Source: Desulfobacteraceae bacterium
GTDB lineage: Bacteria; Desulfobacterota; Desulfobacteria; Desulfobacterales; RPRI01
Direction: 5' to 3'
Length of the DNA stretch: 55,718 bases
NCBI GenBank assembly: GCA_003818505.1
Contig: RPRI01000026.1
Coordinates: 1 to 55,718 of the forward strand
This document shows, piece after piece, positions 12,943 to 29,197 of this stretch. Made by a program: the position numbers and the translations under genes. The notes under the pieces were generated by a model. It was not told where the DNA came from, did no database searches, and worked only from the letters and a program-made list of their open reading frames with translations. Each line of letters starts with the position of its first letter. The stretch's first letter is position 1.

Positions 12943-13039
12943 AATATTGGAAGAAAGGGGTCAAGGATTCCAGGGTTCAAGTGATCGAGAATGCGATGGC
13001 AACAGCCCATACCCACATTGCTTCAGATCAGGTGTTGTG

Positions 13040-13049
13040 CAAAGGTCTC
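13040..13049. repeat. Solitary family A terminal repeat
   Basis: CAAAGGTCTC is identical to the right terminal repeat of the 6075 and 35161 elements. No matching GAGACCTTTG partner is found to the left, so this is at most a decayed end. It lies just upstream of the ribosome-binding site of the activase gene. Confidence 0.3.
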
Positions 13050-13060
13050 AAAGAGGTGTT

Positions 13061-16000
13061 ATGAAAAGGTCTCGCGCTGAAAAGATAAGATCACTCGGAT
13101 TCTGCCTCGGTGCTTCGACTATTTCAGCTGTCTGGCTTGATGCTGAGCGGTGCCCTGGTACCGGGACATCCTGTTTTTCTCAGAATCCCCGGGTTGCGGG
13201 TTTTTTAACACTTCCCCATGAGGGCGATCCCAGACGCACTCTTCTTTCCGCGTTTAAGCAGGTCGGAAATTCTTTCGACAGGATAGCCGCAACAGGCCGG
13301 AGATTTCATAAGCTTTTAAATTTATCCACTATTCCAGAACCGGAAGCGGTTGAATATGCGTACGGATTTGTAAAATCTCCGGTAATTTCCTCTCCGGCCA
13401 TTGTCTCTGCGGGCGGTGAAACATTCATGGTTTATGTACTGGACGGCTCCGGAAGAATATCGAATGTTTGCACAGGTAACAAGTGCGCTTCCGGCACGGG
13501 CGAGTTTTTTTTACAGCAGCTCCGGAGAATGAATGTTTCTATGGAAGAGGCTGCTACCTGGGCGGTATCGGAAGAGCCTCATAATGTTTCCGGCCGGTGT
13601 TCCGTTTTCTGCAAATCGGATTGCACCCACGCTACGAATAAAGGCGTGCCAAAGTCAAAGGTTGCCTCAGGCCTCTGCAAAATGATGGCAAACAAGATTC
13701 TGGAGCTCTTAAAAAAGGTGAAAAGAGAAAATATCATGATCACCGGCGGGACAACCAAAAACAGGATGATGATAGAATACCTGCAAAGAGAGATTCAGGG
13801 CCTGATCGTTCCAAGAGAGGCCCCTTATTTTGAAGCTCTTGGAGCGGCATTGTGGGCTCTTGAACATGAAACTCTCTTCCTGTCCGGAATGGATGCTTTG
13901 TTTAAAAACGAAGCGATATCCTTTGAAATGCTTTTACCGTTAAAAAAATTTGAAGATATGGTGGAATTCAAAACCATGTCTACAGGCGAAATCAGGGCGG
14001 GTGACGACTGCACCTTTGGTCTTGATGTCGGTTCGACTACGACAAAGGCCGTTCTTTTGCGGAACAGAGATGATGCAATTCTCGAATCGGTTTACCTTCG
14101 GACAAACGGTGATCCGGTGGGAGCTTCAAAAAAGTGCTATGAACATATAATCAAAGAGGTTGAAAAGAAGGCGCCTCTTTCGGAAATATCAATTGAAGGC
14201 TTAGGGGTATGCGGCTCAGGCCGTCAGATCGCGGGCCTTCACGCGCTGACGGACGGTATCATAAATGAAATAATCGCCCATGCGGAGGCTGCTGTATATT
14301 TCGATCCTAAAGTCGATACGATATTTGAAATAGGGGGGCAGGACGCAAAGTACACATACATTACCAATTCAGTGCCTTCGGATTATGCCATGAACGAGGC
14401 ATGTTCAGCCGGCACAGGCTCTTTCCTGGAAGAATCGGCTCATGAAACTCTTGGAATAAAGATGGAAGATATAGCCGGTGTCGCCCTGAGAGGATCGAAG
14501 CCGCCGAACTTCAATGATCAATGCGCAGCCTTCATATCCTCTGATATTAAAAATGCCATTCATGAAGGATTAAAACACGAAGATATTGTTGCTGGGCTCG
14601 TATACTCGATTTGCATGAATTATTCCAACAGGGTCAAGGGAAACAGGCCCGTAGGTGAGAAAGTATTTATGCAGGGAGGGGTATGTTACAACCGGGCTGT
14701 TCCTCTTGCCATGGCGGCTTTAGTCGGGAAGCCTATTGTTGTGCCTCCGGAGCCGGGTCTTATGGGAGCTTTCGGAGCCGCTCTGGTGGTCAAAAAAAGA
14801 ATCGAAACGGGCTTGATGCAAAAAAAGCTTTTTGATCTTAAAGCGCTTGCAGACCGGGAGGTCAGGTACGGCAAGACATTCATATGCAAGGGAGAAAAAA
14901 ATGAATGCGACCGGCGCTGCAATATAGCGATAATAGAACTTGAGAATAAAAAATATCCTTTTGGGGGCGCCTGCAACCGTTACTATAACCTGCGCCATAA
15001 TATAAAAAGCGATGCCGATAAGCTTGACCTTGTCCGAGTCCGGCAGAAGCTTGTTTTTGGAAAATATGCTGCTTCACATTTAACCCCGATAAATGGGATA
15101 AGTAAGTCTATGAGATTCTTTCCTGCCACTCTTTCCAGTACCCCCTTGAGGGATAAAAAAACGCAGGAACGAATCTCTTCCTTACTAAACGGATCAAAGA
15201 AAGGACTGAAGGGCCGGATCGGAATAAACAGAAGCTTTCTTGTCAATACTTACTATCCCTTATATTCAAACTTTTTCCGTGAAATCGGATTTGAACCCGT
15301 AATTCCCATGATTCCTTCGAAAGAGGGAGTAGATCAGAAGAACGCTGCGTTTTGTTATCCGGTTGAGCAGGCGCATGGTTTTTTCTGGTCTCTCATTTCG
15401 GGCAGTGATGTTCCGGAGTTCATCTTTCTACCTCATTTTAAAGCCGTGCCTGTCACAAACGGGTATGGAAGTTCACAGGTCTGTCCTCTCGTTCAGGGGG
15501 AAACATTTTATCTTCAAACCACATTCAGAAAGAAGATTGAAGAGCTAAGGAGAAAAGGCGTAAAAATCCTCGATCCTCTTATTGATCTTACCAAAGGGAT
15601 AGAAGCCGCAAAAGAGCCTCTTCTTAAAACTGCTAAATCGATGGGATTGCCCTTGAGGGATGCTGAAAAAGCATTTCATGCAGCGGCTGATGCCCAGGAG
15701 AACTGCTTTAATGAGATGAGGTCTATAGGTAATGAAACCCTGAAAGAACTTGAAAAAGATCCTGAAAAATTAGGCGTAGTGATTTTTGGCAGGCCATACA
15801 ACGGCTTTGTTGAGGAAGCCCACATGGGAATACCGCGTAAATTTGCATCGAGAGGCATCAGTGTTTTGCCGTTTGATTTTCTCGATTTTGATAATGAAGA
15901 CGGCAAACGCCACATGTACTGGGGAATGGGACAGATGCTGCTTAAAGCCGGAAAAGTTGTACAGCGCCATCCACAGCTTTTCGGCACATATATAACCAAT

Positions 16001-17539
16001 TTTTCCTGCGGTCCTGATTCGTTTATTATAGGGTATTTCAGGGACCTGATGGGAAGAAAACCGTCATTAACCCTTGAGCTCGACAGCCATACCGCCGATG
16101 CCGGGCTGGAAACGAGAATCGAAGCTTTTATTGATATTGTTAATTCATACAGGCAGCTTCTTTCCGAAAAAAAGATTACGGGAATGAAAAGGAGATTTAT
16201 ACCGGCAAGGGTGGCTTTTGAAAACGGGATGCCGGGAGTAATTACATCGTCCGGCAATGTCCTGCCGATGAACGATCCGGGTGTTAAGATTCTGTTGCCT
16301 TCCATGGGCAGACTCGCAACAGAATCGTTTGCGGCGGTATTCGGAGGGAAAGGCTATAATGTTGTGGCGCATCCTCCGGCCGATAAAGCTGTTCTAAAGC
16401 TGGGTCGGGCCAACACCTCCTGCAAGGAGTGCCTGCCCCTGATACTGACCACCGGAACCCTTCTTAATTGCATAAATAACGGAAGATCGAAGGGAGAGGT
16501 TCTGGTTTATTTCATGCCGACCTCTTCCGGCCCATGCAGGTTCGGACAATACCACATTTTTATGGAGGATCTTATTGCAAGGCTCGGTATTCCTGATGTA
16601 GCAATGTTCTCACTTACTTCCGAGAATTCATACGGAGGAATGGGGAACGATTTTCACAAAAAAGGCTGGTGGGGTGTTGTAATATCGGATGTGATGGAAG
16701 ATATACGTTCAATGATTCTGGCAAATGCGCTTGATCGTGATTCAGCTCTGGATCTTTTTGAAAAGGAATGGAGTTTGATTTTGAATGAACTTGGGAATGG
16801 GGACTTTACCAGTTTGAGAAAGAAGTTAAAGGAGAGCTGCGGAAACTTTAAAGCGCTTCCGATGAAACTCCTGCCGGATGAAGTCCCGAGGATATCTCTT
16901 GTCGGGGAGATATTTGTCCGGAGGGATTCCATATCAAGACAGAATCTGACGGAGAAACTTGCGGATATGGGATTTGCAACCGTTTGCTCTCCGATTGCCG
17001 AGTGGCTTCATTATTGCGATTATCTGGTTGATAAAAACCTTGTTGATGCAAAGATGTCGGGTCGTGAAAAACTCTCTTTTGCCTTTAAAAAGAGGATCAT
17101 GAGAAACTATGAGAAAAGCATCAAGAAAATCTTTTCGCTTTCGGGACTGGTGCATGCCGGACATGTAAATGCAGAATCGATTGTAAAAACAGCCATGCCG
17201 TACATATCGGATAATCTTACCGGTGAAGCGGTTTTGACTGTTGGAAGCGCTTTGGCCGAGATTGCTTCTCATGCCTGCGGCGTAATTGCAATAGGACCTT
17301 TCGGATGCATGCCGAACAGGCTGTCGGAAGCGATACTGACCGAGGTAATGAACCGGGAAGGCAAACTTGCAGCCGAGCCGGACAACAGGCGCCTCAGAAA
17401 CGTTCTCTCCGATGTGGATAATCTCCCTTTTCTTGCAATTGAAAGCGACGGATCTCCATTTCCTCAGCTTATAACCGCAAAGCTTGATGCTTTCTCCCTG
17501 CAGGCGAAAAGGCTTCACTCAGCGATGATGAGGAATTAA
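13061..17539 (+). CDS. 2-hydroxyacyl-CoA dehydratase-type activase/dehydratase fusion protein
   Basis: A 1492-residue protein. The start is at ATG 13061, which follows AGAGGT; the frame is open further upstream from 12905 without support. Two ASKHA ATPase (BadF/BcrA/HgdC) modules occur: residues ~9-310, opening with LGFCLGASTISAVWLD and containing NKCASGTGEFFLQQL, and ~319-590, with FGLDVGSTTTKAVLL and GGQDAKYT at ~425. After a cysteine-bearing linker (CNRYYNL at ~636) comes a DUF2229-like block (GINRSFLVNTYYPLY) and an HgdB/HgdA-like region with FGRPYNGFVEEAHMG at ~905 and NTSCKECLPL at ~1118. Relatives use ATP to drive low-potential electron injection into radical dehydratases or reductases; this protein's substrate is unknown. 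No partner gene adjoins it. Confidence 0.8.
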   Translation: MKRSRAEKIRSLGFCLGASTISAVWLDAERCPGTGTSCFSQNPRVAGFLTLPHEGDPRRTLLSAFKQVGNSFDRIAATGRRFHKLLNLSTIPEPEAVEYAYGFVKSPVISSPAIVSAGGETFMVYVLDGSGRISNVCTGNKCASGTGEFFLQQLRRMNVSMEEAATWAVSEEPHNVSGRCSVFCKSDCTHATNKGVPKSKVASGLCKMMANKILELLKKVKRENIMITGGTTKNRMMIEYLQREIQGLIVPREAPYFEALGAALWALEHETLFLSGMDALFKNEAISFEMLLPLKKFEDMVEFKTMSTGEIRAGDDCTFGLDVGSTTTKAVLLRNRDDAILESVYLRTNGDPVGASKKCYEHIIKEVEKKAPLSEISIEGLGVCGSGRQIAGLHALTDGIINEIIAHAEAAVYFDPKVDTIFEIGGQDAKYTYITNSVPSDYAMNEACSAGTGSFLEESAHETLGIKMEDIAGVALRGSKPPNFNDQCAAFISSDIKNAIHEGLKHEDIVAGLVYSICMNYSNRVKGNRPVGEKVFMQGGVCYNRAVPLAMAALVGKPIVVPPEPGLMGAFGAALVVKKRIETGLMQKKLFDLKALADREVRYGKTFICKGEKNECDRRCNIAIIELENKKYPFGGACNRYYNLRHNIKSDADKLDLVRVRQKLVFGKYAASHLTPINGISKSMRFFPATLSSTPLRDKKTQERISSLLNGSKKGLKGRIGINRSFLVNTYYPLYSNFFREIGFEPVIPMIPSKEGVDQKNAAFCYPVEQAHGFFWSLISGSDVPEFIFLPHFKAVPVTNGYGSSQVCPLVQGETFYLQTTFRKKIEELRRKGVKILDPLIDLTKGIEAAKEPLLKTAKSMGLPLRDAEKAFHAAADAQENCFNEMRSIGNETLKELEKDPEKLGVVIFGRPYNGFVEEAHMGIPRKFASRGISVLPFDFLDFDNEDGKRHMYWGMGQMLLKAGKVVQRHPQLFGTYITNFSCGPDSFIIGYFRDLMGRKPSLTLELDSHTADAGLETRIEAFIDIVNSYRQLLSEKKITGMKRRFIPARVAFENGMPGVITSSGNVLPMNDPGVKILLPSMGRLATESFAAVFGGKGYNVVAHPPADKAVLKLGRANTSCKECLPLILTTGTLLNCINNGRSKGEVLVYFMPTSSGPCRFGQYHIFMEDLIARLGIPDVAMFSLTSENSYGGMGNDFHKKGWWGVVISDVMEDIRSMILANALDRDSALDLFEKEWSLILNELGNGDFTSLRKKLKESCGNFKALPMKLLPDEVPRISLVGEIFVRRDSISRQNLTEKLADMGFATVCSPIAEWLHYCDYLVDKNLVDAKMSGREKLSFAFKKRIMRNYEKSIKKIFSLSGLVHAGHVNAESIVKTAMPYISDNLTGEAVLTVGSALAEIASHACGVIAIGPFGCMPNRLSEAILTEVMNREGKLAAEPDNRRLRNVLSDVDNLPFLAIESDGSPFPQLITAKLDAFSLQAKRLHSAMMRN

Positions 17540-17761: not shown

Positions 17762-18085
17762 ATGGCGGATTATAATATCAATATTTTTTTGGATGATGAA
17801 AGATTTAAAAAAATTGAAGAGGTTCAGTTGGCCGACAAAGTTAAAATGATCGACGGGAAAAAGGCTATCCAGGTGCCTTTCACAGATAAGGAGCATAAAA
17901 AACTTATCAAAGGTTTTCCGGATCTGGCTTTCGATGCGTCCAATTCCTGTGTTATTCCGGAAAATCCCGATAAAATCCTTTTTGATATTGTTGTCAGCAT
18001 GAAGACCGTAGATGTTATGAAATTTGCAATTATGAAAATTTATAGTCCTCTTGCAGGAAAAGCGCCCCGGGCTGCAAGATACTAG
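17762..18085 (+). CDS. Small conserved-looking protein of unknown function
   Basis: A 107-residue protein, not recognised. An excellent AGGAGG lies seven bases before the ATG, a full sigma-70 promoter lies upstream and a strong terminator follows, so it is a well-expressed monocistronic gene. The protein is soluble and lysine- and aspartate-rich, has a single cysteine in SNSCVIPENPD, no signal peptide and no membrane helix. Predicted strands and helices (YNINIFLDD, KVKMI, AIQVPF, KILFDIVVSM) suggest a compact alpha/beta fold. It stands between the activase and the hydrogenase operon, with no overlap with either. Confidence 0.75.
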   Translation: MADYNINIFLDDERFKKIEEVQLADKVKMIDGKKAIQVPFTDKEHKKLIKGFPDLAFDASNSCVIPENPDKILFDIVVSMKTVDVMKFAIMKIYSPLAGKAPRAARY

Positions 18086-18406: not shown

Positions 18407-18916
18407 GTGCTGAAAGAAGCTGAAACAAGCGGGAAACAGACAAGTCATGAGGAGTTCTCCTGTGAGAAACTGGCTGCAGTGGATAATGTAATCGAACACT
18501 ACCGTTCAAGGCCGGGAGCTTTGATTCCTGTTTTGGAAGAAGTACAGGAAATTCTCAGCTACATACCTAAACCCATCCAGAAAAGAATTGCGCTCGGATT
18601 GGGAGTTCCCTTTAGTGAGGTCTGGGGGGTGGTGACCTTCTATTCATTTTTTACCACGACGCCAAGAGGGCGGCACACAATAAGATGTTGTCTGGGTACG
18701 GCCTGCTATGTCAGGGGTAGCAAGAAAAACCTGGAAAAGCTCTCCACTCTTCTTCACGTTGAACCGGGTGAAACAACCGAAGATCGCCGGTTTTCGCTTG
18801 AGACTGTCCGGTGCCTTGGAGCCTGCGCTCTTGCTCCGGTTGTGGCGGCCGACGGGGAAACTTTTGCGCAGGTGAAACCTTTAAAAATACCGGAAATTCT
18901 GGATGCATTCAAGTAA
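18407..18916 (+). CDS. hoxE: NuoE/HoxE-like [2Fe-2S] diaphorase subunit
   Basis: A 169-residue protein with a GTG start eight bases after a strong AAAGGAGGT. It is a thioredoxin-fold NADH dehydrogenase 24-kDa homologue: VIEHYRSRPGALIPVLEEVQEIL and the VWGVVTFYSFF helix precede the four cysteine ligands, two in CCLGTACYVRG (the second and third cysteines of the stretch are the likely pair, spaced as in the family) and two in VRCLGACALAP. It holds one [2Fe-2S] cluster that relays electrons between the flavin subunit and the rest of the complex. First gene of the hydrogenase operon; the next start follows within ~50 bases. Confidence 0.88.
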   Translation: MLKEAETSGKQTSHEEFSCEKLAAVDNVIEHYRSRPGALIPVLEEVQEILSYIPKPIQKRIALGLGVPFSEVWGVVTFYSFFTTTPRGRHTIRCCLGTACYVRGSKKNLEKLSTLLHVEPGETTEDRRFSLETVRCLGACALAPVVAADGETFAQVKPLKIPEILDAFK

Positions 18917-18964
18917 CTCTGATTTTTTGGAATGTATAACAATTTTAAGAGAGGGACAACTCGA

Positions 18965-21900
18965 ATGAGTCGATTAACTCCGGAAAGCTTGAACAGACTT
19001 CGTGATGATATGAGCCGTTTCATGGCCGTCCGTTTTATGGAAGATATCCATGACGGGCAACCGGTTTATCCGTATCACCTGATGTTCTGCGGTGGAACCG
19101 GATGCCGGGCATCCAAAAGCATGGAGATAAAGCATCATCTTATCGATGCCATTGAAAAGCGGCAACTTCAGGACAAAATCGTGCTGATCGAGACCGGTTG
19201 CATCGGCTTCTGCGCCCATGGTCCGGTCATGGTCGTTTATCCGGGAGGCGTTTTTTATCAATATCTGAAGCCTGATGATATGGATGAAATTCTGGATGAG
19301 CATATTCTAAAGGGTTATCCCGTAGATCGCTTACTGTATAAAGATCCTGTCTCGGGCCGTTCTATACCGCGATTAAAAGAGATTCCCTTCTTTTCCATGC
19401 AGCAGGCGCGTGTTTTAAGAAACAAGGGTTTAATAGCTGCTGAACATATTGAAGAATATGTTGGAACCGGCGGCTATCTTGGGGCATGCAAGGCGCTTCT
19501 GGAAATGCAGCCGGAGGAGATAATAAAAGAGATCAAGGTTTCAGGCCTGCGCGGGCGAGGTGGCGCAGGATTTCCGACAGGCCTCAAATGGGAGTTTGCA
19601 AACCGTTCCCAGGGCCCGGTCAAATATATTCTCTGTAATGCCGATGAAGGTGATCCGGGGGCATTTATGGATTGTGCAGTGCTGGAATCTGATCCACACG
19701 CGGTTTTGGAGGGTATGATCATTGCGGCCAAGGCTATCGGGGCTCACCAGGGCCATATTTACTGCAGAGCCGAGTATCCGCTGGCCGTCAAACGGCTAAA
19801 TATTGCAATTGGCCAGGCCCGCGAGCATGGTCTGCTGGGAAAAGATATTCTGGGTTCAGGTTTTGACTTTGATCTTGATATTTATCGCGGAGCCGGAGCA
19901 TTTGTCTGCGGCGAGGAAACAGCGCTTATGACCTCTATCGAGGGCAAGCGGGGTACGCCTCGGCCAAGGCCGCCGTTCCCGGCGGTTTCCGGATTATGGA
20001 AAAAGCCGACTGTTTTGAACAATGTTGAAACCCTGGCCAGTGTAGCCCAAATAATCATTAACGGCGGCAACTGGTACGCCGAACTGGGCACCCTGCGCAG
20101 CAAAGGAACAAAGATATTTTCCGTTACCGGAGATGTAAACAACATTGGATTAGTGGAGGTTCCGGTGGGCGCTGCCCTTGGCGATATTGTTTTTGATATT
20201 GCCGGCGGTATTGCCAAAGGTAAGAAGTTTAAGGCTGTTCAGCTGGGCGGTCCTTCCGGAGGGTGTATTCCGGGGCAGCATCTGAATACGCCTGTTGATT
20301 ATGAGTCGCTTACCATGCTTGGCGCTATCATGGGTTCCGGGGGCATGATCGTCATGGACGAAGACAAGTGCATGGTGGATGTGGCCCGGTTCTTCATGGA
20401 GTTTTGCGCCGATGAGTCATGCGGCAAGTGTACACCGTGCCGGGTTGGCACCCGCAAGATGCTCGAAGTGCTCACCCGGATCTGTGAAGGCAGGGGCAAG
20501 GCCGGAGACATTGAAACACTTGAACGGTGGGCTGACATTATGCGCAATACCTCTTTATGCGGCCTTGGCCAAACGGCTTCAAACCCGGTGCTTTCCACCC
20601 TCCGGTATTTCCGTCATGAATATGAAGCCCATATTTATGAAAAACGATGCCCTGCCGTGGTGTGTTCAGGCCTTTTTGACGCCCCGTGCCGACATGCCTG
20701 CCCGGTCGGGATGGATATACCCGACTATATTGCCCTTATCCGGGAGAACAGACTGGATGATGCGTACAAGGTGCTGCTGAAGACAAATCCGTTTCCAAGC
20801 ATTTGCGGGCGGGTCTGCGAGCACCGATGCGAGATGAAATGCCGGCGTTCCATGATTGATGAACCGGTTAGCATAAAGTACCTTAAACGTTATATAACCG
20901 ATCATGCTGCAAGGCCGCCTGTCAAACCGGCGATAATGGAGCGCACGGAAAAAATCGCGGTTATTGGCGCAGGCCCGTCAGGCCTGACCGCTGCCAAGGA
21001 TCTTGCCTTGCGGGGCTACCGGGTAAGTGTATTCGACCAATTTCCCGAGGCTGGTGGAATGCTGAGATGGGCTATTCCCGCCTACCGGCTTCCCCGTGAT
21101 GTGCTCAGAATGGAAATTCAGGATATCTTCGATCTGGGAGTCGAATTTAAGGGAAACACGCGCATTGGCCGGGATATTTCATGGGATGAGATTGCAGGAC
21201 GGTTTCATGCGGTATATCTGGCTGTCGGCGCCCAGAGGAGTTCCGCCGCTGATATGCAAGAGATCGAAGGGGTCCGGGTGACCGGTGCGGTGGAGTACCT
21301 CCGGGAGTATAATCTTGGCAATAATCCGCATACCGGCCTGAGTGTAGTGGTTGTAGGCGGCGGCAATGCGGCAATCGATGCAGCCAGATGCGCCATAAGG
21401 CTCGGGGCTCAGGATGCGGTTATTCTTTATCGTCGGCAGAAGGAGGACATGCCGGCACAGGCAGAGGAGATTCTGGCGGCAGAACAGGAAGGAGTCCGCA
21501 TATGTGTCATGGGCGCTCCTCTGCGGTTTGAACAAACGCCAAATCCGCTGAAAAAACTCATCTGTCAGCGGATGACCCTTGGTGAATTTGATGCCAGTGC
21601 AAGAAGAAAGCCGGTTCCTGTTCCTGGAGAGCAATTCGAACTTGAAACCGACCATGTCATACTGGCAATAGGACAACAAGTTGATATTACAAATGATATA
21701 CAAACTATCGGTGTCGGGATCAATCGAAAGGGCCTGATCGAAATTATACCGGGTAAAAAGACCGGAACTGCGGGAACGATGATATTTGCCGGCGGAGATG
21801 CGGTAAGGGGCCCGGATACGGTGATCGGCGCTGTTGCTGATGGTCACAGAGCTGCCGAGGAGATAGATGCGGCCATACGTGAAAAAAATGCGGAGCCGTC

Positions 21901-22123
21901 CTATGAGCCGCCTCCGCCGGAAGTGATGGAAATTCCAAAATCAGCTGAAGCGCAAACAGATTCTAAACCGAGGGCATCAATGCCTGAGGCTGATCCGGTT
22001 GAGAGAAAAAAAGATTTTAGAGAGGTGGAACTCGGACTTACTCCTGAGTTTGCCTTTACAGAAGCCTGTCGCTGTCTGCAATGTAATCTTAAGGATGTCG
22101 AATCTGACTCAGGCGGATCATAG
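18965..22123 (+). CDS. hoxF: NuoF/HoxF diaphorase subunit fused to a GltD-like NAD(P)H:flavin module
   Basis: 1052 residues from ATG 18965, which has GAGAGGG nine bases upstream; ATG 18932 lacks a ribosome-binding site. Order: thioredoxin-like [2Fe-2S] domain (CGGTGCRAS at ~42, GCIGFCAHG at ~79); NuoF core with GLRGRGGAGFPTG (~194, NADH), NADEGDPGAF (~224, FMN) and ESCGKCTPCRVG plus TSLCGLGQ (~485-533, [4Fe-4S]). Then a GltD-type extension: CRHACPVGMDIP (~575), CGRVCEHRCEMKC (~613-626), the FAD fold AVIGAGPSGLTAAKDL (~665), a second nucleotide fold VVVVGGGNAAIDAARCA (~794) with LYRRQKEDMPA, and FAGGDAVRGPDTVIGAV (~941). It therefore carries two flavin and two pyridine-nucleotide sites. The RR after LY suggests NADP(H) at the second site. 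The fusion is the notable point. Confidence 0.88.
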   Translation: MSRLTPESLNRLRDDMSRFMAVRFMEDIHDGQPVYPYHLMFCGGTGCRASKSMEIKHHLIDAIEKRQLQDKIVLIETGCIGFCAHGPVMVVYPGGVFYQYLKPDDMDEILDEHILKGYPVDRLLYKDPVSGRSIPRLKEIPFFSMQQARVLRNKGLIAAEHIEEYVGTGGYLGACKALLEMQPEEIIKEIKVSGLRGRGGAGFPTGLKWEFANRSQGPVKYILCNADEGDPGAFMDCAVLESDPHAVLEGMIIAAKAIGAHQGHIYCRAEYPLAVKRLNIAIGQAREHGLLGKDILGSGFDFDLDIYRGAGAFVCGEETALMTSIEGKRGTPRPRPPFPAVSGLWKKPTVLNNVETLASVAQIIINGGNWYAELGTLRSKGTKIFSVTGDVNNIGLVEVPVGAALGDIVFDIAGGIAKGKKFKAVQLGGPSGGCIPGQHLNTPVDYESLTMLGAIMGSGGMIVMDEDKCMVDVARFFMEFCADESCGKCTPCRVGTRKMLEVLTRICEGRGKAGDIETLERWADIMRNTSLCGLGQTASNPVLSTLRYFRHEYEAHIYEKRCPAVVCSGLFDAPCRHACPVGMDIPDYIALIRENRLDDAYKVLLKTNPFPSICGRVCEHRCEMKCRRSMIDEPVSIKYLKRYITDHAARPPVKPAIMERTEKIAVIGAGPSGLTAAKDLALRGYRVSVFDQFPEAGGMLRWAIPAYRLPRDVLRMEIQDIFDLGVEFKGNTRIGRDISWDEIAGRFHAVYLAVGAQRSSAADMQEIEGVRVTGAVEYLREYNLGNNPHTGLSVVVVGGGNAAIDAARCAIRLGAQDAVILYRRQKEDMPAQAEEILAAEQEGVRICVMGAPLRFEQTPNPLKKLICQRMTLGEFDASARRKPVPVPGEQFELETDHVILAIGQQVDITNDIQTIGVGINRKGLIEIIPGKKTGTAGTMIFAGGDAVRGPDTVIGAVADGHRAAEEIDAAIREKNAEPSYEPPPPEVMEIPKSAEAQTDSKPRASMPEADPVERKKDFREVELGLTPEFAFTEACRCLQCNLKDVESDSGGS

Positions 22124-22210
22124 ACGATGGGTTGGTTATGATTCCGGCGGTTCGCAGGCGACGCCATAATCCGGCTTTGCTTTAGATCGGATGTTTCACA
22201 AAGGAGAAAG

Positions 22211-24283
22211 ATGCGCATGGAAAATAGTCCAAAGCAGGTAAATGTGACCATTGACGGTCTCCGGTTATCTGTCCCTGAAGGGATGACAATCCTGGAAGCC
22301 GCCCGGCAAAACAGCATCCGGATTCCTACCCTTTGTCATCATCCTGCGCTGTCGGCATGGGGAGGATGCCGGTTGTGCGTTGTTGAGGTGGATGGCAGCC
22401 CTAAACTGGTCGCCAGTTGTGTTATGCCGGTGCGCGATGGGATGTCGGTCGTTACCAGCAACAGTAACATTATTGCCGCACGGCGGACTATTCTGGAGTT
22501 TCTTTTTGCCGAGCGCAATCACAACTGCATGTTCTGTTCCCAGAGCGGTGATTGTGAACTGCAGGCTCTGGCATACGAACTGCAGATGGACCATCTTACC
22601 GTACCCCAGTCCTACGAGCAGTATCCAGTGGATATTACCAGTGAGTACATGGGAATTGACCATAATCGCTGTGTTCTGTGTGGACGATGCGTTCGTGCGT
22701 GTCATGAGATTGCCGGCGCTTACGTTCTCAACTACCAGGGGCGGGGCATAAAGAACCGGATCTCTTTTGACCTTAATATGAGCCGGGATGAATCCTCGTG
22801 CATGAGTTGCGGCGCATGCATGCAGGTCTGCCCAACAGGAGCCATTTTTAACCGTTACCGGAGCCATCGATCGGTAAAAGGGCATCAGCAGGACAGTCGT
22901 ATCGTAACAGATGCTTTTTGTCCCCGTTGCGGTTTAATGTGCGAAACGCATACAATTGTTGAAGATAACCAACTGCTAAGGATCGAAGGCCACATCAGGC
23001 CCGGAAATATGGGATCGGAACGCGGCCAATTATGTGTCAAAGGTCGTTTTGAGCCTCTGAAAACACCGGGACAGCGCCTGCTTAATCCAATGATCCGCGG
23101 GAGCGACGGAATATGGAAAGAGACCACATGGAAAACGGCCATGGATATGGTTGAAAGCAGGATGAGCGTAAGAAACGGCGGAACATTCGGGCTGGTCTCC
23201 AGCCGCTGCGCCAATGAACACCTCATGATATTCAGAGATCTTATGCTTAAAGGCTGGTCAGCCGATTATCTGGACACAATTGATGGCCGTACCTTGAGGA
23301 CGCTGGCCGGCGCCTGGAAAGAGCTCGGTAAAACCTTTCTGGGTCTGAAAGAAGCGCCATGGCAACGCATACCGGATGCAGATCTTATTATGGCGGCCGG
23401 AGCCAACTCCTTTGAAACACAGCCTCTGATAGAAGGAGTAATAAGACGGGCGATTCTCGAAAAAGGAATTAGCGCAATTGTTATCGGATCCACCGACCCT
23501 GTCAGTCCCTGGAGCGCTGATTATGTGCCTGTAGCTGAGGGGAATGAACCGCTGGTAATGGAGGCTTTCCTGGCGCAGACGCTTAAAATTCATACACTGC
23601 AAAGATCACCGGGTTGGGAGCCTGTCATTTCAGAGATGAAAGAGATAGATGTACAAAGCCGCCTTAATCAGGCCGGCCTTGATAATTCCGCGAAAGAAGC
23701 GTTTATGTCTGCGGTTGATGCCTTTGTAAAGAGCAGGAACCCGATGATCATTGCCGGGAAAGGAATTACTGACCTGCCGCAGGCCGGCAGTTTACGCAAC
23801 CTGATGCTTCTGTCTCTCATTAAAGGTATATTACCGGAAAACGCTGTGCGGGTGGTGATTCTCAAATCAAACGGCAACAGCTCCGGTGCTCTGAAACTTG
23901 GAATATCCACAGGAGCGCCGGAAGGAAAGTACCGGCGTGGTTTGATGCTGCTGGATGAAGAGAATCTGGAAGGTTCTCAGCTCCTGGAACGGCTTGGGAG
24001 TCTTGAATTTCTGGCTGTTATCACACCTTATTTCCCGGAAGCGCTGAAAGATATTGCACATGTCCTTATTCCGAGACCTTCATTGCTTGAGGAGGAGGGC
24101 ACATATACCTCCCTGGATGGTCAGGAGATCCGCACGCTGAACCCGGTGCTGAAAAGGCCGAAAGATGTGAGCGAGTCCTGGCAAACTCTGCTGGCTCTGA
24201 TGCAGCGTACCGAGTTCCATCCCGGTTATGCCCGGTGGAAAGATATCAGGGCCAGAGTTATCAGCGAAATGCAATCGGTGTAA
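22211..24283 (+). CDS. hoxU: NuoG-like iron-sulfur subunit of the hydrogenase complex (HoxU-type, extended)
   Basis: A 690-residue protein, much longer than a typical ~240-residue HoxU. The N-terminus has a [2Fe-2S] ferredoxin domain (CHHPALSAWGGCRLCVVEVD), the His-ligated [4Fe-4S] motif HNCMFCSQSGDC, two ferredoxin clusters (CVLCGRCVRAC and CMSCGACMQVCP) and a further motif CPRCGLMCET...CVKG as in FdhA/NuoG. The remainder is a molybdopterin-oxidoreductase fold without a visible catalytic Cys or Sec, so it is probably structural, as in complex I NuoG. It wires electrons from the flavin subunit to the [NiFe] dimer. AAGGAG precedes two possible starts, 22211 and 22217. Confidence 0.85.
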   Translation: MRMENSPKQVNVTIDGLRLSVPEGMTILEAARQNSIRIPTLCHHPALSAWGGCRLCVVEVDGSPKLVASCVMPVRDGMSVVTSNSNIIAARRTILEFLFAERNHNCMFCSQSGDCELQALAYELQMDHLTVPQSYEQYPVDITSEYMGIDHNRCVLCGRCVRACHEIAGAYVLNYQGRGIKNRISFDLNMSRDESSCMSCGACMQVCPTGAIFNRYRSHRSVKGHQQDSRIVTDAFCPRCGLMCETHTIVEDNQLLRIEGHIRPGNMGSERGQLCVKGRFEPLKTPGQRLLNPMIRGSDGIWKETTWKTAMDMVESRMSVRNGGTFGLVSSRCANEHLMIFRDLMLKGWSADYLDTIDGRTLRTLAGAWKELGKTFLGLKEAPWQRIPDADLIMAAGANSFETQPLIEGVIRRAILEKGISAIVIGSTDPVSPWSADYVPVAEGNEPLVMEAFLAQTLKIHTLQRSPGWEPVISEMKEIDVQSRLNQAGLDNSAKEAFMSAVDAFVKSRNPMIIAGKGITDLPQAGSLRNLMLLSLIKGILPENAVRVVILKSNGNSSGALKLGISTGAPEGKYRRGLMLLDEENLEGSQLLERLGSLEFLAVITPYFPEALKDIAHVLIPRPSLLEEEGTYTSLDGQEIRTLNPVLKRPKDVSESWQTLLALMQRTEFHPGYARWKDIRARVISEMQSV

Positions 24284-24308
24284 CATTGCATTTATTGGAG
24301 GTGAATTA

Positions 24309-24854
24309 ATGTCAAAACCCAAGGTGGCTACTGTATGGTTGGAAGGATGTGCCGGATGCCACATGTCTTTCCTGGATCTGGACGAAAAGCTTTTGGATAT
24401 ATTTGATGCTGTTGATATTACAGTGAGTCCGGTAACGGACTTCAAAAATTTTGATTTTGGTTCTCTGTCCGTCGGCATAATAGAAGGCGGTATCGGCAAT
24501 AAGGAACAGGAGGAGATTGCCATTAATCTCCGGGAGCATTGTAAAATCCTCATTGCGTGGGGCGACTGCGCGGTTTTTGGCGGGATTAATACAATGCGAA
24601 ATGCAATTCCGGTAAAGGAACTGCTCCGTTACGGTTATCAGGAGACTGCCGGCACAACTTCGGGCGTTTTGCCGATTCATGAGGAATTGCCGCTTCTTCT
24701 GGAGCAGGTCCTGCCGGTCAATCGCCTTGTGACCGTGGATGTATATGTTCCCGGATGTCCGCCATCTCCGGAATCGATTGCCTACTGCCTTACGGAAATT
24801 TTAAAGGGACGAATGCCTGTTGTTCTTCCACCGAAGATGATGCACTTTGATTGA
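24309..24854 (+). CDS. hoxY: [NiFe] hydrogenase small subunit, HoxY type
   Basis: 181 residues from ATG 24309, preceded by GGAGGTG. An in-frame ATG at 24228 lies inside the NuoG-like gene and has no ribosome-binding site. WLEGCAGCHMSFLD gives the first proximal-cluster cysteines, WGDCAVFGGI the third and YVPGCPPSPESI the fourth, so only the proximal [4Fe-4S] cluster is present, as in cytosolic group 3 enzymes. There is no Tat signal, placing it in the cytoplasm. The large-subunit gene starts only 13 bases after its stop. Confidence 0.9.
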   Translation: MSKPKVATVWLEGCAGCHMSFLDLDEKLLDIFDAVDITVSPVTDFKNFDFGSLSVGIIEGGIGNKEQEEIAINLREHCKILIAWGDCAVFGGINTMRNAIPVKELLRYGYQETAGTTSGVLPIHEELPLLLEQVLPVNRLVTVDVYVPGCPPSPESIAYCLTEILKGRMPVVLPPKMMHFD

Positions 24855-24867
24855 GGAGGCCGATTAC

Positions 24868-26298
24868 ATGAGCGACAACAGAAAAATAACGATTAATCCG
24901 ATTACCCGCCTTGAAGGCCACGGCAAGGTTGTAATCCACCTGGATTCGGACGGCAATGTGGAAGATGCCAAGTTTCATGTTACCCAGTTCAGGGGATTTG
25001 AGCGGTTTTGCCATGGCCGGCCATTTGAGGAAATGCCGATTATCACTCAGCGAATCTGCGGAATTTGCCCGGTCAGCCATCAACTGGCTTCAGCCAAAGC
25101 GTGCGATGCCATATTGGGTGTAAAAATTCCGGACGCGGCGATAGCGCTGAGACGGCTTCAGCATATGGGACAGTTTATCCAGTCCCATGCGCTCCATTTC
25201 TTCTATCTGGCCAGCCCTGATCTTCTCTTCGGATGGGACTCCGACCCGGGACAGCGCAATATAGTTGGAGTGATAGGCGCTTATCCGGATATAGCCAAAA
25301 AAGGTATAAGGCTGAGAAAGTTCGGCCAGGATATCATAAGGTCTCTCGGGGGTAAAAGTATACATCCGGCCTATGCGATTCCCGGTGGTGTTATTAACAG
25401 CCTGACAGAAAAGGCGCGTGATGATTTGTTGACGGGATTTGAACCAGCCTATGATGCCTGTTACTCCGGCCTGGATTTTATCAAGGAATGGCTTGAAAAG
25501 AACCGGGATGAAATCGAAAGGTTTGCAAATTTTCAGTCCCTTATGACAGGCCTTGTGAATGATGCCGGTTGTCCGGATATGTATGACGGAAAACTGCGGA
25601 TTCAGCACAGCTCCGGAAACATCCGCATGGAATTCGACCCCGGAGATTATCTGAACTTTATCGCAGAGCATGTTGAGGCGTGGTCATACCTGAAATTTCC
25701 TTATTTCAGAGAGCAGGGATTTCCCAACGGTTCTTACAGGGTAGGGCCGCTGGCCAGGGTCAATATAGCCGATGCCATGAGTACATCCAAGGCTCAGTCC
25801 GAGTTGCTGACTTACAGGGAAAAGACCCGCGACGGGTTGAGCGGGTCCACTCTCCTGTTTCATTACGCGCGGTTGATCGAGTTGCTTAACTGTTTAGAAG
25901 TAGCTGAAATATTATTGCAAAGCGAAGTCATCTGCGGTACGGATATCCAAAACCGTGCGTCTGTTTCAAACAATGAAGGCATTGGTGTCATCGAGGCTCC
26001 CCGTGGAACCCTTATTCACCATTACAGAGTGGATAAATACGGCGTTATCGAAGACGTCAATCTGATTGTGGCAACCGGACACAATAATCAGGCCATGAAT
26101 CAATCCGTAGGTATGGTAGCCAGAGAGTATATTCGGGAAGGGCATGTAAGGGAAGGCATATTAAACCGTATCGAGGGCGCAATCCGATGTTACGATCCCT
26201 GTCTTTCATGTTCGACCCACGCTCTGGGTCAAATGCCCCTCAATGTAAAAATTTACAGCAAGGATTTGCAACTGCTGATTCAACTGCAAAGGGACTGA
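24868..26298 (+). CDS. hoxH: [NiFe] hydrogenase large subunit, HoxH type
   Basis: 476 residues from ATG 24868, with GAGGAGG eight bases upstream; the TTG at 24847 is not needed. INPITRLEGHGKV opens the protein. RICGICPVSH at ~62 (L1) and DPCLSCSTHALG at ~442 (L2) supply the four cysteines of the Ni-Fe centre. The ~25 residues after the L2 histidine are the peptide removed by the maturation protease encoded next. The motif form and the absence of export signals fit group 3 cytosolic bidirectional enzymes; the exact subgroup needs phylogeny. Confidence 0.93.
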   Translation: MSDNRKITINPITRLEGHGKVVIHLDSDGNVEDAKFHVTQFRGFERFCHGRPFEEMPIITQRICGICPVSHQLASAKACDAILGVKIPDAAIALRRLQHMGQFIQSHALHFFYLASPDLLFGWDSDPGQRNIVGVIGAYPDIAKKGIRLRKFGQDIIRSLGGKSIHPAYAIPGGVINSLTEKARDDLLTGFEPAYDACYSGLDFIKEWLEKNRDEIERFANFQSLMTGLVNDAGCPDMYDGKLRIQHSSGNIRMEFDPGDYLNFIAEHVEAWSYLKFPYFREQGFPNGSYRVGPLARVNIADAMSTSKAQSELLTYREKTRDGLSGSTLLFHYARLIELLNCLEVAEILLQSEVICGTDIQNRASVSNNEGIGVIEAPRGTLIHHYRVDKYGVIEDVNLIVATGHNNQAMNQSVGMVAREYIREGHVREGILNRIEGAIRCYDPCLSCSTHALGQMPLNVKIYSKDLQLLIQLQRD

Positions 26299-26301
26299 TA
26301 A

Positions 26302-26871
26302 GTGGACGGATTTCAGAACTCTGAAACGGTTAATATATGGATTATTGGTTATGGCAACCGTAATCGCCGGGATGACGGAGTTGGACCACATGTGGCTGAC
26401 CGGCTTAAGCTCCGCTTTGGGGATGCCGGAAGAGTCCGGATGGTGTCGGTTCATCAGCTTGAGCCGGAGATAGCTGAGGCGCTTAGGACCTCAAGCGTGA
26501 TTATTTTCATCGACTCTTCCCGGGAAATGTTGCCAAGGGGGGGGCGGGCATGGAGCCGGATTCGGCCGGTTTTGGATATGCACGGCATTACCCACAGCCT
26601 GAAGGCAGGTACTTTGCTGGGATTGATTCTACTGTTGTATGATCGCTGTCCCGATGCATGGATGGTGTCTGTGCAGGGAAGCGATTATGACTTTGGTGAA
26701 GGACTGAGCAAGTCGACTGAAAGGAGCGCAATCCGGGTAACCGGTGAGGTTGCCCGTTTTATCCAAAGAGGTTTGAAAAGCAACTCCCCGACAAAAGCGA
26801 TAAACGATAATGATCGCATGGAGAATAACAATGAAGGTTTTTACATAAGGAGTAAACCATGGCCGGCTTAA
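26302..26871 (+). CDS. hoxW: Hydrogenase maturation endopeptidase (HoxW/HyaD family)
   Basis: A 189-residue protein with a GTG start. IIGYGNRNRRDDGVGPHVAD contains the G-x-G-N...DDGVG motif with the Ni-sensing aspartate, IIFIDSS follows the family's second acidic position, and GITHSLKAGTLLGLILLLY has the conserved histidine region. It trims the C-terminal peptide of the large subunit after nickel insertion. It starts three bases after the hoxH stop. Its 3' end overlaps the following receiver gene by 13 bases; the C-terminal ~35 residues look unstructured and may be non-essential. Confidence 0.87.
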   Translation: MDGFQNSETVNIWIIGYGNRNRRDDGVGPHVADRLKLRFGDAGRVRMVSVHQLEPEIAEALRTSSVIIFIDSSREMLPRGGRAWSRIRPVLDMHGITHSLKAGTLLGLILLLYDRCPDAWMVSVQGSDYDFGEGLSKSTERSAIRVTGEVARFIQRGLKSNSPTKAINDNDRMENNNEGFYIRSKPWPA

Positions 26872-27272
26872 CCGATATACTTATCATTGATGATGATAAA
26901 GATCTGGTGCAGGCAATGCAGATCATTCTGGAAAGGCATGATTATGGTGTCCGTACGGCCTATAACGGGAAACAAGGCTATGATAAAATACAAACCAGGC
27001 CTCCTGATCTTATCATCCTGGATGTTATGATGGCGACCGATACGGAAGGTTTCGATCTGGCATATAAGCTTAAACAGAGTCCCGAGTACCGGAATATTCC
27101 AATAATAATGGCGACATCCTTTACACGGACAATGGCGGAAGAGGGACCTGAAAGGTTTCAGCACATAATGGGAGAATCATGGCCGGTATCTCACTTAATA
27201 GAGAAACCTATTGATCCTGAAGTATTGGTAGCAGCCATAAAAAAAATACTTGCAGAGTTTAAAAAGGAATAA
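26859..27272 (+). CDS. Stand-alone response regulator receiver
   Basis: A 137-residue CheY-like domain with no output domain. ILIIDDDKD carries the acidic pocket, Asp55 in LIILDVM is the phosphoacceptor, MATSFT the switch threonine/serine region and EKPIDPEVL the conserved lysine-proline. It overlaps the protease gene and is followed 41 bases later by a histidine kinase, so it is probably phosphorylated by that kinase. Cotranscription with the hydrogenase suggests a role in sensing redox state or H2, which is inference. Confidence 0.87.
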   Translation: MAGLTDILIIDDDKDLVQAMQIILERHDYGVRTAYNGKQGYDKIQTRPPDLIILDVMMATDTEGFDLAYKLKQSPEYRNIPIIMATSFTRTMAEEGPERFQHIMGESWPVSHLIEKPIDPEVLVAAIKKILAEFKKE

Positions 27273-27313
27273 TGGATGCATAAAATATAATTCCTTGCGG
27301 AGGAGTCTTGCCG

Positions 27314-29197
27314 ATGCAGCCTGGGTATGAACTAGTAAAAGAACAGTTGTTCTTTCGCAAAGAACTTATCGAAAGGTTGCCCTGGTTGATCCGCCTCCGG
27401 TGGATAATTGTTGCAGCCGGTTTCGCCGGATACGGAGCCTTATGCCTTTTCGGGCAAAACTTGCCGCCGTTTCCCATTGCTATCGTGTTCTCTGCTATCC
27501 TCCTTTACAACCTGCTGTTTCATCTGGTCTGGAAATATATTCCGCCTTTTAAGTTGCAAAGTGTTCGTCAGTCTGATGATGCGCCCCGCCTTTGTGACCG
27601 TGAGATACGGGCATTTACGCTTTTCGCCCATACCCAGATTTCAGCCGACCTTTTGGCCCTTTGTGCTGCTGTTTACTATTCGGGGGGTATTTACAGCCCG
27701 CTTGTGCACTTCTTCATATTCCATATCATACTGACCGGCATCCTGCTGCCGCCGGTCAGTTGCTATCTTTATGGAATCCTTGTATTCCTGGTAATGGGGG
27801 GGCTCCTTTTGTTCCAGCAATGGTCTCTCGTACCTATTTACCCGATATGGTTTCAGGATGCCTTGTTCTCCAATAAATCCGGACTGAATGAGATCATTAT
27901 CCGGTATCTTACACTTATGACGGTTATCCTTGTCACGGCATTTCTGGTGACAACCATAAAGCTGAGTCTGAGAACCAAAGGCAGAGAGCTGCTGCATTTA
28001 TCCAAAGCTCTTGACGAAAGCAACACAAAGCTTACGGCTCTCTACGAGATGGTCAGGGAAATGGGGCTCTGCTCAGAACAAAAAGCCCTGATGGATTCGG
28101 CTACCCGCCATGCTGCAGGGATAATGGGGGTAAAGGCATGTTCCATCAAACTGATTGATGAACAGCAAAAAACACTTCGCTTTGCTTCAGCTTACGGACT
28201 CAGTGAAGATTACACCAAATCCAAAGACTGTATTGATATTACAAAAAGTCCGATAAACAGGAAAATTATCGAAGGTTCTGTCAGTGCCATAGGAAATATT
28301 GAGGAACGGGATTATTTTCAGTATCCCGAAGATATCAGAAAAGAGGGAATTGCATCCATGATCTGTCTTCCCCTCCGCGTTGATAAGATGGTTCTCGGTG
28401 TATTCTGCGTTTACAGCAAAACAGCACACTATTTCGGAGACAGTGATGTCAGGTTTTTTGCTCTGATGGCCGACCTAACTGCGCTGGAAATTGAAAAACT
28501 CAATACTCAACTTAACCGCACCTGGTTTTTACAAAAGGTCGCCCACCAGCTTCGTTCTCCATTGCATGCTGTTGTGGGTCTCCTCAAAATATTGAAAAAC
28601 GGTTATCTTGGCGCCATAAATGCCCGGCAGGAAGAGATTCTTCTGCGCTGTGAAAAACGACTCGAGATGTCTGACAGCCTGGTAAGCGACCTGTTAAGGC
28701 TGAGCATCAGACGTTCAAGTCCGAACCGAGATGATATGCACCAGGTCTATTTACAAAAGGTACTGAGGTCTTTATCGGGTTTTTTTGAGGCTCAGGCCAG
28801 AGAGAAATCCTTATATATTGAATTCCAGATTGATGACACGCTGCCTGCTGTAACGGCAACCGAAAGGATGCTCGACGATCTGTTCTCAAATCTGATTTCC
28901 AATGCCATAAAATATACACCGCCAGAAGGAAGGGTTGCCATCCGTCTGGAGCGTGGAGAGGAAAACCGGATACTCCTGGAAGTAACGGACACCGGGATCG
29001 GTATCCCGGAAGATGCCTTTTCGAAGCTGTTTACCGAATTTTTCAGGGCCGAAAACGCCAAATCCTATACGGAAGCCGGAACAGGACTGGGTTTGGTCAT
29101 CGTTAAAGAAATACTTGACCGGCTGAAAGGTACCGTTTCCGTAAACAGTATCCCCGGAAAGGGTGCCACTTTTACCTGCAGGTTTCACGTCCGGTGA
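27314..29197 (+). CDS. Membrane histidine kinase with GAF domain
   Basis: 627 residues. ATG 27314 sits nine bases after GGAGGAG and is preferred to TTG 27308. An N-terminal block of about six hydrophobic helices (~18-215; WIIVAAGFAGYGALCL to YLTLMTVILVTAFLV) acts as membrane sensor. A short coiled linker leads into a GAF domain (~245-400) with ACSIKLIDEQQ and SMICLPLRVDKMVLGVFCVY. HisKA has VAHQLRSPLHAVVGLL with the phosphoacceptor histidine, and the ATPase domain has LISNAIKYTPP, VTDTGIGIP and GTGLGLVI. Its position at the end of the hydrogenase operon, after the receiver gene, suggests the two form one signalling pair. Confidence 0.88.
   Translation: MQPGYELVKEQLFFRKELIERLPWLIRLRWIIVAAGFAGYGALCLFGQNLPPFPIAIVFSAILLYNLLFHLVWKYIPPFKLQSVRQSDDAPRLCDREIRAFTLFAHTQISADLLALCAAVYYSGGIYSPLVHFFIFHIILTGILLPPVSCYLYGILVFLVMGGLLLFQQWSLVPIYPIWFQDALFSNKSGLNEIIIRYLTLMTVILVTAFLVTTIKLSLRTKGRELLHLSKALDESNTKLTALYEMVREMGLCSEQKALMDSATRHAAGIMGVKACSIKLIDEQQKTLRFASAYGLSEDYTKSKDCIDITKSPINRKIIEGSVSAIGNIEERDYFQYPEDIRKEGIASMICLPLRVDKMVLGVFCVYSKTAHYFGDSDVRFFALMADLTALEIEKLNTQLNRTWFLQKVAHQLRSPLHAVVGLLKILKNGYLGAINARQEEILLRCEKRLEMSDSLVSDLLRLSIRRSSPNRDDMHQVYLQKVLRSLSGFFEAQAREKSLYIEFQIDDTLPAVTATERMLDDLFSNLISNAIKYTPPEGRVAIRLERGEENRILLEVTDTGIGIPEDAFSKLFTEFFRAENAKSYTEAGTGLGLVIVKEILDRLKGTVSVNSIPGKGATFTCRFHVR

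Follow-up and report, generated by a model that had tools for sequence, protein, structure and literature searches.

The stretch of DNA analysed here (the window, 55,718 nucleotides; contig RPRI01000026.1 of assembly GCA_003818505.1) is one whole contig of a 4.43 Mb metagenome-assembled genome of a Desulfobacteraceae bacterium, which consists of 352 contigs with a completeness of 98.18% and a contamination of 5.7%. Between positions 18407 and 26871 it carries an operon for a putative [NiFe] hydrogenase, encoding a NuoE-like subunit, a NuoF-like subunit fused to a GltD-like module, a NuoG-like subunit, the small (S) and large (L) [NiFe] subunits and a protease (Table 1). Pfam and NCBIfam searches placed the NuoE-like, NuoF-GltD and NuoG-like genes and those of the [NiFe] dimer where an earlier note on this DNA had put them. 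The successive genes are separated by 48, 93 and 25 bases, by 13 bases to the likely ATG start of the L gene and then by 3; if the L gene began at its first TTG instead, it would overlap the S gene by 8 bases.

Table 1. Genes and sequence features of the hydrogenase operon and its downstream neighbours (window coordinates; residue numbers are those of the fusion protein).
Feature	Coordinates	Strand	Evidence or remark
HydC/BfuC-like subunit (NuoE-like, 169 amino acids)	18407..18916	+	Pfam 2Fe-2S_thioredx; best PDB chain 7t2r_C, 144 bits
Fusion open reading frame NuoF+GltD	18932-22123	+	likely start Met at 18965, matching relatives; 1052 amino acids
HydB/BfuB-like half, residues 1-568: thioredoxin-like [2Fe-2S] N-domain, FMN/NAD domain, B1 [4Fe-4S], hinge	18965..20668	+	Pfam; best PDB chain 7t2r_B, 753 bits
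Hinge metal ligands C562, C567 (with H556, C469 and semi-conserved C507)	20648..20665	+	ungapped alignment to 7t2r_B
GltD-like module, residues 570-1052 and stop, at the position of the HydB ferredoxin domain	20672..22123	+	Pfam Fer4_20 and Pyr_redox_2
First GltD cluster Cys C575, C579	20687..20701	+	61/61 fusions
Lys641, position of StnC K170 (Glu in NfnB)	20885..20887	+	K in 61/61 fusions; StnC/NfnB alignment
NAD(P)-binding GGGN...YRR...MPA segment, residues 798-831	21356..21457	+	aligned fusions
C-terminal cluster Cys C1037, C1040 (RCLQC)	22073..22084	+	C in 56/56 rows reaching there; 5 rows end earlier
HydA/BfuA-like subunit (NuoG-like, 688-690 amino acids)	22211/22217-24283	+	best PDB chain 7t2r_A, 327 bits over residues 6-648
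HydS-like [NiFe] small subunit (181 amino acids)	24309..24854	+	best PDB chain 7t2r_E, 213 bits; 5xf9_C (HoxY), 128
HydL-like [NiFe] large subunit (476 amino acids)	24868..26298	+	likely start ATG 24868; best PDB chain 7t2r_D, 582 bits; MvhA 5odc_F, 448; HoxH 5xf9_D, 434
Hydrogenase maturation protease	26302..26871	+	NCBIfam TIGR00072 above cut-off; no Pfam match
Response regulator	26859..27272	+	Pfam; near NiFe-type fusion in 19/22 loci
GAF histidine kinase	27308..29197	+	Pfam; matching kinase in 19/22 NiFe-type loci

When the five subunits were compared with the PDB by phmmer, the top chain for the E subunit, the NuoF half and the G, S and L subunits came in every case from 7t2r, the NiFe-HydABCSL hydrogenase of Acetomicrobium mobile. 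The earlier note had taken HoxEFUYH as its yardstick and the full-length NuoG as an enlargement over the short HoxU; both comparisons had to be given up, as the enzyme is most closely related to NiFe-HydABCSL, where a HydA of the long NuoG-like kind is the rule. An ordinary NAD-reducing HoxEFUYH with an irrelevant or artefactual tail is scarcely credible: the leading NCBIfam models for the E and G subunits are indeed HoxE and HoxU, neither of which passes its cut-off, but every subunit scores closer to HydABCSL than to the Hox chains, the G subunit has 688 amino acids and the tail is in frame in all the fusion loci described below. Identity with HoxEFUYH was therefore rejected.

The cysteines of the NuoG-like subunit fit five iron-sulphur (Fe-S) clusters (A1-A5), and no Fe_hyd (H-cluster) domain was found in it by the Pfam scan. 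In the NuoE-like subunit C95, C100, C136 and C140, assigned by motif, are the likely ligands of the [2Fe-2S] cluster C1, and the HydL-like subunit carries the motifs RICGICPVSH (L1) and DPCLSCSTH (L2). The operon thus shows the HydA without H-cluster and the HydS and HydL with NiFe motifs that are proper to NiFe-HydABCSL. It also has features that define Bfu enzymes in PMC9304861, namely the 51K flavin mononucleotide (FMN) domain and NADH_4Fe-4S in BfuB, a NuoE-like BfuC and the hinge (B2/Zn) ligands including His; BfuB departs from this definition on one point, because it includes a ferredoxin domain (B3/B4). By these comparisons, the predicted enzyme is a NiFe-HydABCSL-type (NiFe-Bfu) hydrogenase in which the ferredoxin domain of HydB has been exchanged for a StnC-like GltD module.

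Along the fusion, the Pfam domains 2Fe-2S_thioredx, Complex1_51K, NADH_4Fe-4S, Fer4_20 and Pyr_redox_2 follow each other in this order and in a single frame. Its phmmer alignment with 7t2r_B runs without gaps from residue 34 to residue 570, stopping just past the hinge ligands; SLBB (IPR019554) gave no Pfam match at E<=0.001 on the window protein, yet the alignment spans this region. With an offset of 31, residues C469, C507, H556, C562 and C567 of the window correspond to C438, C476, H525, C531 and C536, the five ligands of the B2 site of A. mobile (PMC8880783). Among the 61 aligned fusions on which the residue counts are based (the window and 60 other loci), C469, H556, C562 and C567 are conserved in 61/61, and position 507 is C in 34, T in 26 and S in one. 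Whether the hinge site holds a [2Fe-2S] cluster or zinc is disputed (PMC8880783 against PMC9499530), and the ligands are conserved whichever is right.

The residues that mark bifurcating beta-subunits according to PMC7311640 (A/E at Thermotoga maritima position 232, M at 234, F at 367 and GGPSG at 427-431) are all found in the window as A233, M235, F313 and GGPSG 428-432, these positions having been matched by motif and not by alignment to the T. maritima sequence. A233 and M235 are present in 60/60 readable fusions and F313 in 61/61, while the Ser of GGPSG (S431) is S in 53/61, A in seven and L in one. In the N-terminal domain, where the [2Fe-2S] cluster B5 would be bound, the window has four cysteines (C42, C47, C79 and C83); position 42 is Cys in 24 and His or Gly in 13 of 37 readable rows, and of the 50 rows readable at position 47, 35 have Cys and 15 have Gly.

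No ferredoxin domain (IPR017896, B3/B4) was found at the C-terminal end of HydB, where the alignment ends at residue 570 and is followed by Fer4_20 and Pyr_redox_2. Ferredoxin-type relatives start a two-cluster B3/B4 domain right after the hinge (tails of loci L040, L041, L063 and L064). Judged by its position, the added module is a replacement of the ferredoxin domain, a point absent from the earlier note. Its PDB matches were led by 9bov_A (358 bits), 9n5u_A (330) and 8oh5_C (314), followed by 4ylf_B (284) and NfnB 5jca_L (270); its nearest relatives of solved structure are thus the GltD portions of Nfn-Bfu/Stn enzymes, and the segment that is N-terminal in NfnB sits at its C-terminus, as in StnC.

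The Fe-S motif that had been assigned to this module is present, but the ligands found are those for two [4Fe-4S] clusters and not for one motif. C575, which lies only eight residues after the hinge ligand C567, as well as C579, C618, C622 and C626, are invariant in the aligned fusions; with the two C-terminal cysteines and K641, the role of whose StnC counterpart K170 is taken from PMC10482914, there are seven Cys and one Lys as eight candidate ligands. An additional Cys, C614, occurs in 58/61 fusions. These ligands bear on a double bifurcation enzyme in which the GltD flavin adenine dinucleotide (FAD) would itself be a bifurcating flavin, an idea raised for the [FeFe] relatives in PMC11406978 and in line with the homologous NfnB, whose FAD bifurcates. 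An NfnB-like bifurcating GltD is disfavoured by K641, since the Lys is shared with StnC, which lost bifurcation, and replaces the Glu of NfnB; moreover, no NfnA-like gene was found among the operon proteins scanned with Pfam and NCBIfam. A double bifurcation is accordingly regarded as a long shot.

NfnB-type GltD proteins donate electrons to ferredoxin from their outer cluster. As the module is homologous to NfnB, ferredoxin might still dock on its cluster pair, and a four-substrate enzyme would then couple H2, NAD, NADP and ferredoxin. The first GltD ligand stands so close to the hinge, however, and the NfnB-type N-terminal segment is so placed, as in StnC, that such an enzyme was judged decidedly unlikely; in Stn, too, GltD is the NADPH port and ferredoxin is reduced at the C-terminus of StnB (PMC10482914).

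Glycine-rich FAD and NAD(P) motifs are present in the GltD module. At the ribose-phosphate end of its second Rossmann fold, YRR is found in 21/21 readable NiFe loci, 11/11 FeFe loci and 7/7 formate dehydrogenase (FDH) loci, the types being named after the partner genes described below, whereas in loci of the methylene-tetrahydrofolate (methylene-THF) reductase (MTHFR) type this position reads CLE or CME in 10/17 and YRR in seven. In glutamate synthases, Arg at this position favours NADP and an acidic residue favours NAD. To judge from these motifs, the second flavin and pyridine-nucleotide module announced in the earlier note is complete, conserved in relatives and of the NADP type.

The continuation of the NuoF gene in frame into a complete GltD-like module was borne out by Pfam, and the NuoF and GltD matches share one frame in 78/78 fusion loci. 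Stops were found in two stretches of the 61 translated loci, at residue 17/721 (L095, before the protein proper) and at residue 1003/1014 (L105, at the end), and no stop lies between the two modules in any of the 61. A fusion by frameshift or assembly error, which had been named as a possible artefact, was rejected on these grounds. Structure prediction of the 1052-residue subunit by AlphaFold from 18 aligned sequences did give a model, with a mean predicted local distance difference test score (pLDDT) of 71.1, but its predicted template modelling score (pTM) was 0.58 and the junction was of low confidence. All 50 Foldseek matches listed for this model correspond to the NuoF/HydB half.

To survey the distribution of the fusion, a 320-residue stretch spanning the NuoF-GltD junction was used as query against two overlapping draws of genomes. 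Of 340 genomes sampled from the class, 114 gave matches at E<=1e-65, and of 395 sampled from the phylum, 102 did so at E<=1e-85; therefore, the fusion is no curiosity of one genome. The class-draw matches are mostly long frames of about 950-1250 amino acids, plus shorter ones of about 640-710, a few being cut by contig ends, and two of them (genomes G275 and G231) cover the NuoF end only. In the shorter frames (e.g. L118:3700-5650), GltD is preceded by just the last part of the NuoF module.

The neighbourhoods of 100 loci, picked from the survey matches for high identity and spread, were scanned; three duplicate contigs were removed and 78 loci carry the fusion. A gene counted as a partner if it lay no more than 12 kb away on the strand of the fusion, and the resulting counts are not frequencies: [NiFe] S and L in 22, MetV (mostly with MetF) in 17, [FeFe] HydA in 11, [FeFe] HydA with FDH in one, FDH in seven and none in 20. 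The search for the fusion beside [NiFe] subunits in other genomes, which the earlier note had proposed, thus yielded 22 loci besides the window, in all of which the fusion, NuoG, S and L genes are collinear on a single strand. A NuoE match turned up in 17 of them and a protease match in 20 (for the regulatory genes, see Table 1), some contigs ending early. Because close pairs such as L085 and L086 are included, these 22 loci represent fewer than 22 independent lineages.

Half of the 20 loci with no partner have at least 5.5 kb downstream of the fusion (L096-L098, L105, L110, L112, L134, L135, L136 and L140). A short NuoG-like gene stands behind the fusion in L110, and FDH-like stretches that fail the score or strand rule are found in L105, L112 and L136. 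L096, L097 and L098 have the fusion and NuoE with no recognised catalytic partner, followed in L097 by a PAS kinase and a sigma-54 regulator.

The usual gene order in MTHFR-type operons is MetF2, FDH-like, NuoE, fusion, MetV and MetF. These MTHFR-linked fusions (L052-L058, L104, L106, L108, L109, L113, L115-L117 and L119) usually stand with a NuoG/FDH-like protein of 890 amino acids, and CLE or CME replaces YRR in 10/16; L111, counted as MTHFR-type but doubtful for its weak 43% MetV match and strong FDH, is not among these 16. The MTHFR-linked loci are candidates for encoding a bifurcating MTHFR complex. On contig C100 of the window genome (L066:8248-12450), a protein of 1400 amino acids with Fer4_20, two Rossmann flavin regions and ferredoxin domains is followed by MetV- and MetF-like genes. 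Elsewhere, the fusion, an FDH and an [FeFe] hydrogenase lie in one gene group (L092:20-8400), and L038:8410-18973 and L039:8473-19062 contain the same hydrogenase operon with an FDH gene inserted, the tail of their HydB being a second NADH_4Fe-4S bundle, neither ferredoxin nor GltD.

A rapidly built tree of 70 NuoF halves, supported by the Shimodaira-Hasegawa-like approximate likelihood ratio test only and weakly at its deep nodes, shows fused and ferredoxin-type subunits intermixed, with seven changes of the canonical label and five of the NiFe label. This intermixing indicates that the C-terminal module of HydB was probably exchanged more than once, and a single origin of the fusion is not supported. 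Because the fusion adjoins H2, formate and methylene-THF modules, a general hub is suggested. In its widest form, which we hold tentatively and a little below an even chance, a whole branch of bifurcating enzymes would have swapped ferredoxin for NADP(H), a HydBC::GltD hub on the old hinge coupling NAD(H) and NADP(H) to [NiFe] H2, [FeFe] H2, formate or methylene-/methyl-THF in sulfate reducers and syntrophs.

The window enzyme is most simply read as one that bifurcates or confurcates electrons. That H2 is bifurcated to NAD+ and NADP+ without ferredoxin, by a HydABCSL-type enzyme with GltD in its HydB, is given about an even chance. H2 would be split at HydL and its electrons would pass through S1-A3-A2-A1-B1 to FMN, the path S1-A3-A2-A1 being that of PMC9304861; the steps from the NiFe site to FMN are proposed because the enzyme is homologous to a solved, biochemically bifurcating one (PMC8880783). 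At FMN, as in HydABCSL, one electron pair would be passed to NAD+ as a hydride, whereas electrons of low potential would travel one at a time through the [2Fe-2S] cluster of HydC and, by a movement of the hinge, into the two GltD [4Fe-4S] clusters, FAD and NADP+. The net reaction would be 2 H2 + NAD+ + NADP+ <-> NADH + NADPH (+ 2 H+), NADPH replacing reduced ferredoxin, and when H2 is low its direction would be reversed, H2 being made from NADH and NADPH.

The H2 pressure at balance was computed with potentials of -280 mV for NAD, -380 mV for NADP and -500 mV for ferredoxin (PMC9304861, Table 1). It came to about 145 Pa for NADH plus NADPH (31 to 316 Pa with NADP at -340 to -400 mV), 3 Pa for NADH alone, about 7 kPa for NADPH alone and 15 kPa for NADH plus ferredoxin. 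With a balance at about 145 Pa, H2 would therefore be released below roughly 100-150 Pa and taken up above.

The same subunits could also form an uncoupled hydrogenase with two nucleotides, GltD being a second outlet or inlet and H2, NAD(H) and NADP(H) equilibrating through one Fe-S wire, which would work as a transhydrogenase too, with no energetic coupling. The FAD of StnC GltD is indeed a plain, non-bifurcating NADPH port (PMC10482914), the window has the StnC-type Lys, and an FeFe-HydABC that lacks B3/B4 and does not bifurcate is nevertheless able to produce H2 from NADH (cited in PMC11406978). The hinge and the residue-level marks of bifurcation are conserved, however, and an open short circuit from NADPH to NADH would be expected to waste NADPH, so that uncoupled operation is considered unlikely, though it has to be taken seriously.

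Several points weigh against bifurcation to NAD+ and NADP+. In PMC9304861 the B1-B5 set is taken to be constant across Bfu enzymes, a HydB of S. wolfei that lacks B3/B4 is non-bifurcating (cited in PMC11406978), and the literature searched yielded no biochemical work on a fused member. The GltD module could also accept ferredoxin, as NfnB does, and its YRR is common to most fusions and not peculiar to the NiFe type. Residue 237 of the window protein (19673-19675), beside the NAD/FMN loop, is Cys, where 56/60 readable fusions have Arg; Cys is found here in two other fusion rows. The geometry of the hinge is poorly predicted, with a pLDDT <50 at residues 571-583 besides the pTM given above, and none of the PDB chains among the matches listed covers both halves, the solved HydB-type chains having 584-630 amino acids; therefore, the fusion is without structural precedent. 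Finally, the direction of H2 uptake was computed to be uphill at <=10 Pa H2, and thus a role in uptake needs higher H2.

As regards the host, dsrA and hypD were found above cut-off in the window genome, and the former makes a sulfate or sulfite reducer plausible, as the earlier note had supposed. None of 11 rnfC matches was above cut-off, which is suggestive only, at the completeness and contamination given above. The response regulator and the GAF histidine kinase downstream of the protease are probably regulatory, and the former probably not part of the enzyme. Upstream of the operon lie a small DUF6955 protein (17762-18085) and an activase-like protein of up to 1544 amino acids with BcrAD/BadFG ATPase and DUF2229 domains (12905-17539).

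The NuoF-GltD fusion is already in print for [FeFe] enzymes, in PMC11406978 (2024). A fused subunit paired with [NiFe] HydSL or with MTHFR was not found in the literature, a weak negative as preprints were absent from the search and subscription papers few. A hub with an NADP-type port on the ferredoxin branch would make it possible to ask whether the FMN-hinge device can bifurcate with no ferredoxin involved, and it could offer sulfate reducers and syntrophs a path linking H2, formate or methyl-THF with both NADH and NADPH at H2 pressures near 100 Pa. The MTHFR-linked form is relevant to the question of what carriers supply methylene-THF reductase with electrons.

Compared with known systems, HoxEFUYH (group 3d) has the same general kinds of subunits, but scores lower throughout, with a short HoxU and no GltD, and, according to PMC8880783, the Hox enzyme, which does not bifurcate, has no B2-B5. 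NfnAB has a Glu-liganded proximal cluster and an NfnA partner, whereas the window has K641 instead of Glu. The StnABC/Nfn-Bfu transhydrogenases (8OH5, 9BOV and 9N5U) share with the window a bifurcating HydBC-type core with a GltD port, the order of segments and, in StnC, the Lys; in StnABC, however, it is the NuoG-like subunit, on the donor side, that carries GltD, and the ferredoxin domain of the HydB-type subunit is retained, whereas in the window GltD belongs to HydB, on the low-potential side, and a hydrogenase is added. In the 'sub-type I BfuB' that PMC11406978 describes for [FeFe] hydrogenases of Hydrogenedentota, and which has relatives in several phyla, DPD_II (Fer4_20) and an FAD/NAD(P) domain take the place of B3/B4; its authors suggest a possible second bifurcation centre, one based on FAD, and call for more work. 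The design of this BfuB is alike, the likeness being one of description and not of compared sequences, but the catalytic part of sub-type I BfuABC is an [FeFe] HydA, whereas the window has a NuoG-type HydA and [NiFe] HydSL. The characterised bifurcating Bfu enzymes covered in PMC9304861 have ferredoxin as one partner. With NiFe-HydABCSL (Type 3 Bfu, A. mobile, 7T2R/7T30), whose operon also contains a histidine kinase and assumed maturation genes (PMC8880783), the window shares the five kinds of subunits, the ligands of A1-A5, B1, the hinge, C1, S1 and the NiFe site and four cysteines as candidate ligands of B5, but its HydB lacks the B3/B4 ferredoxin-like domain and has GltD instead.

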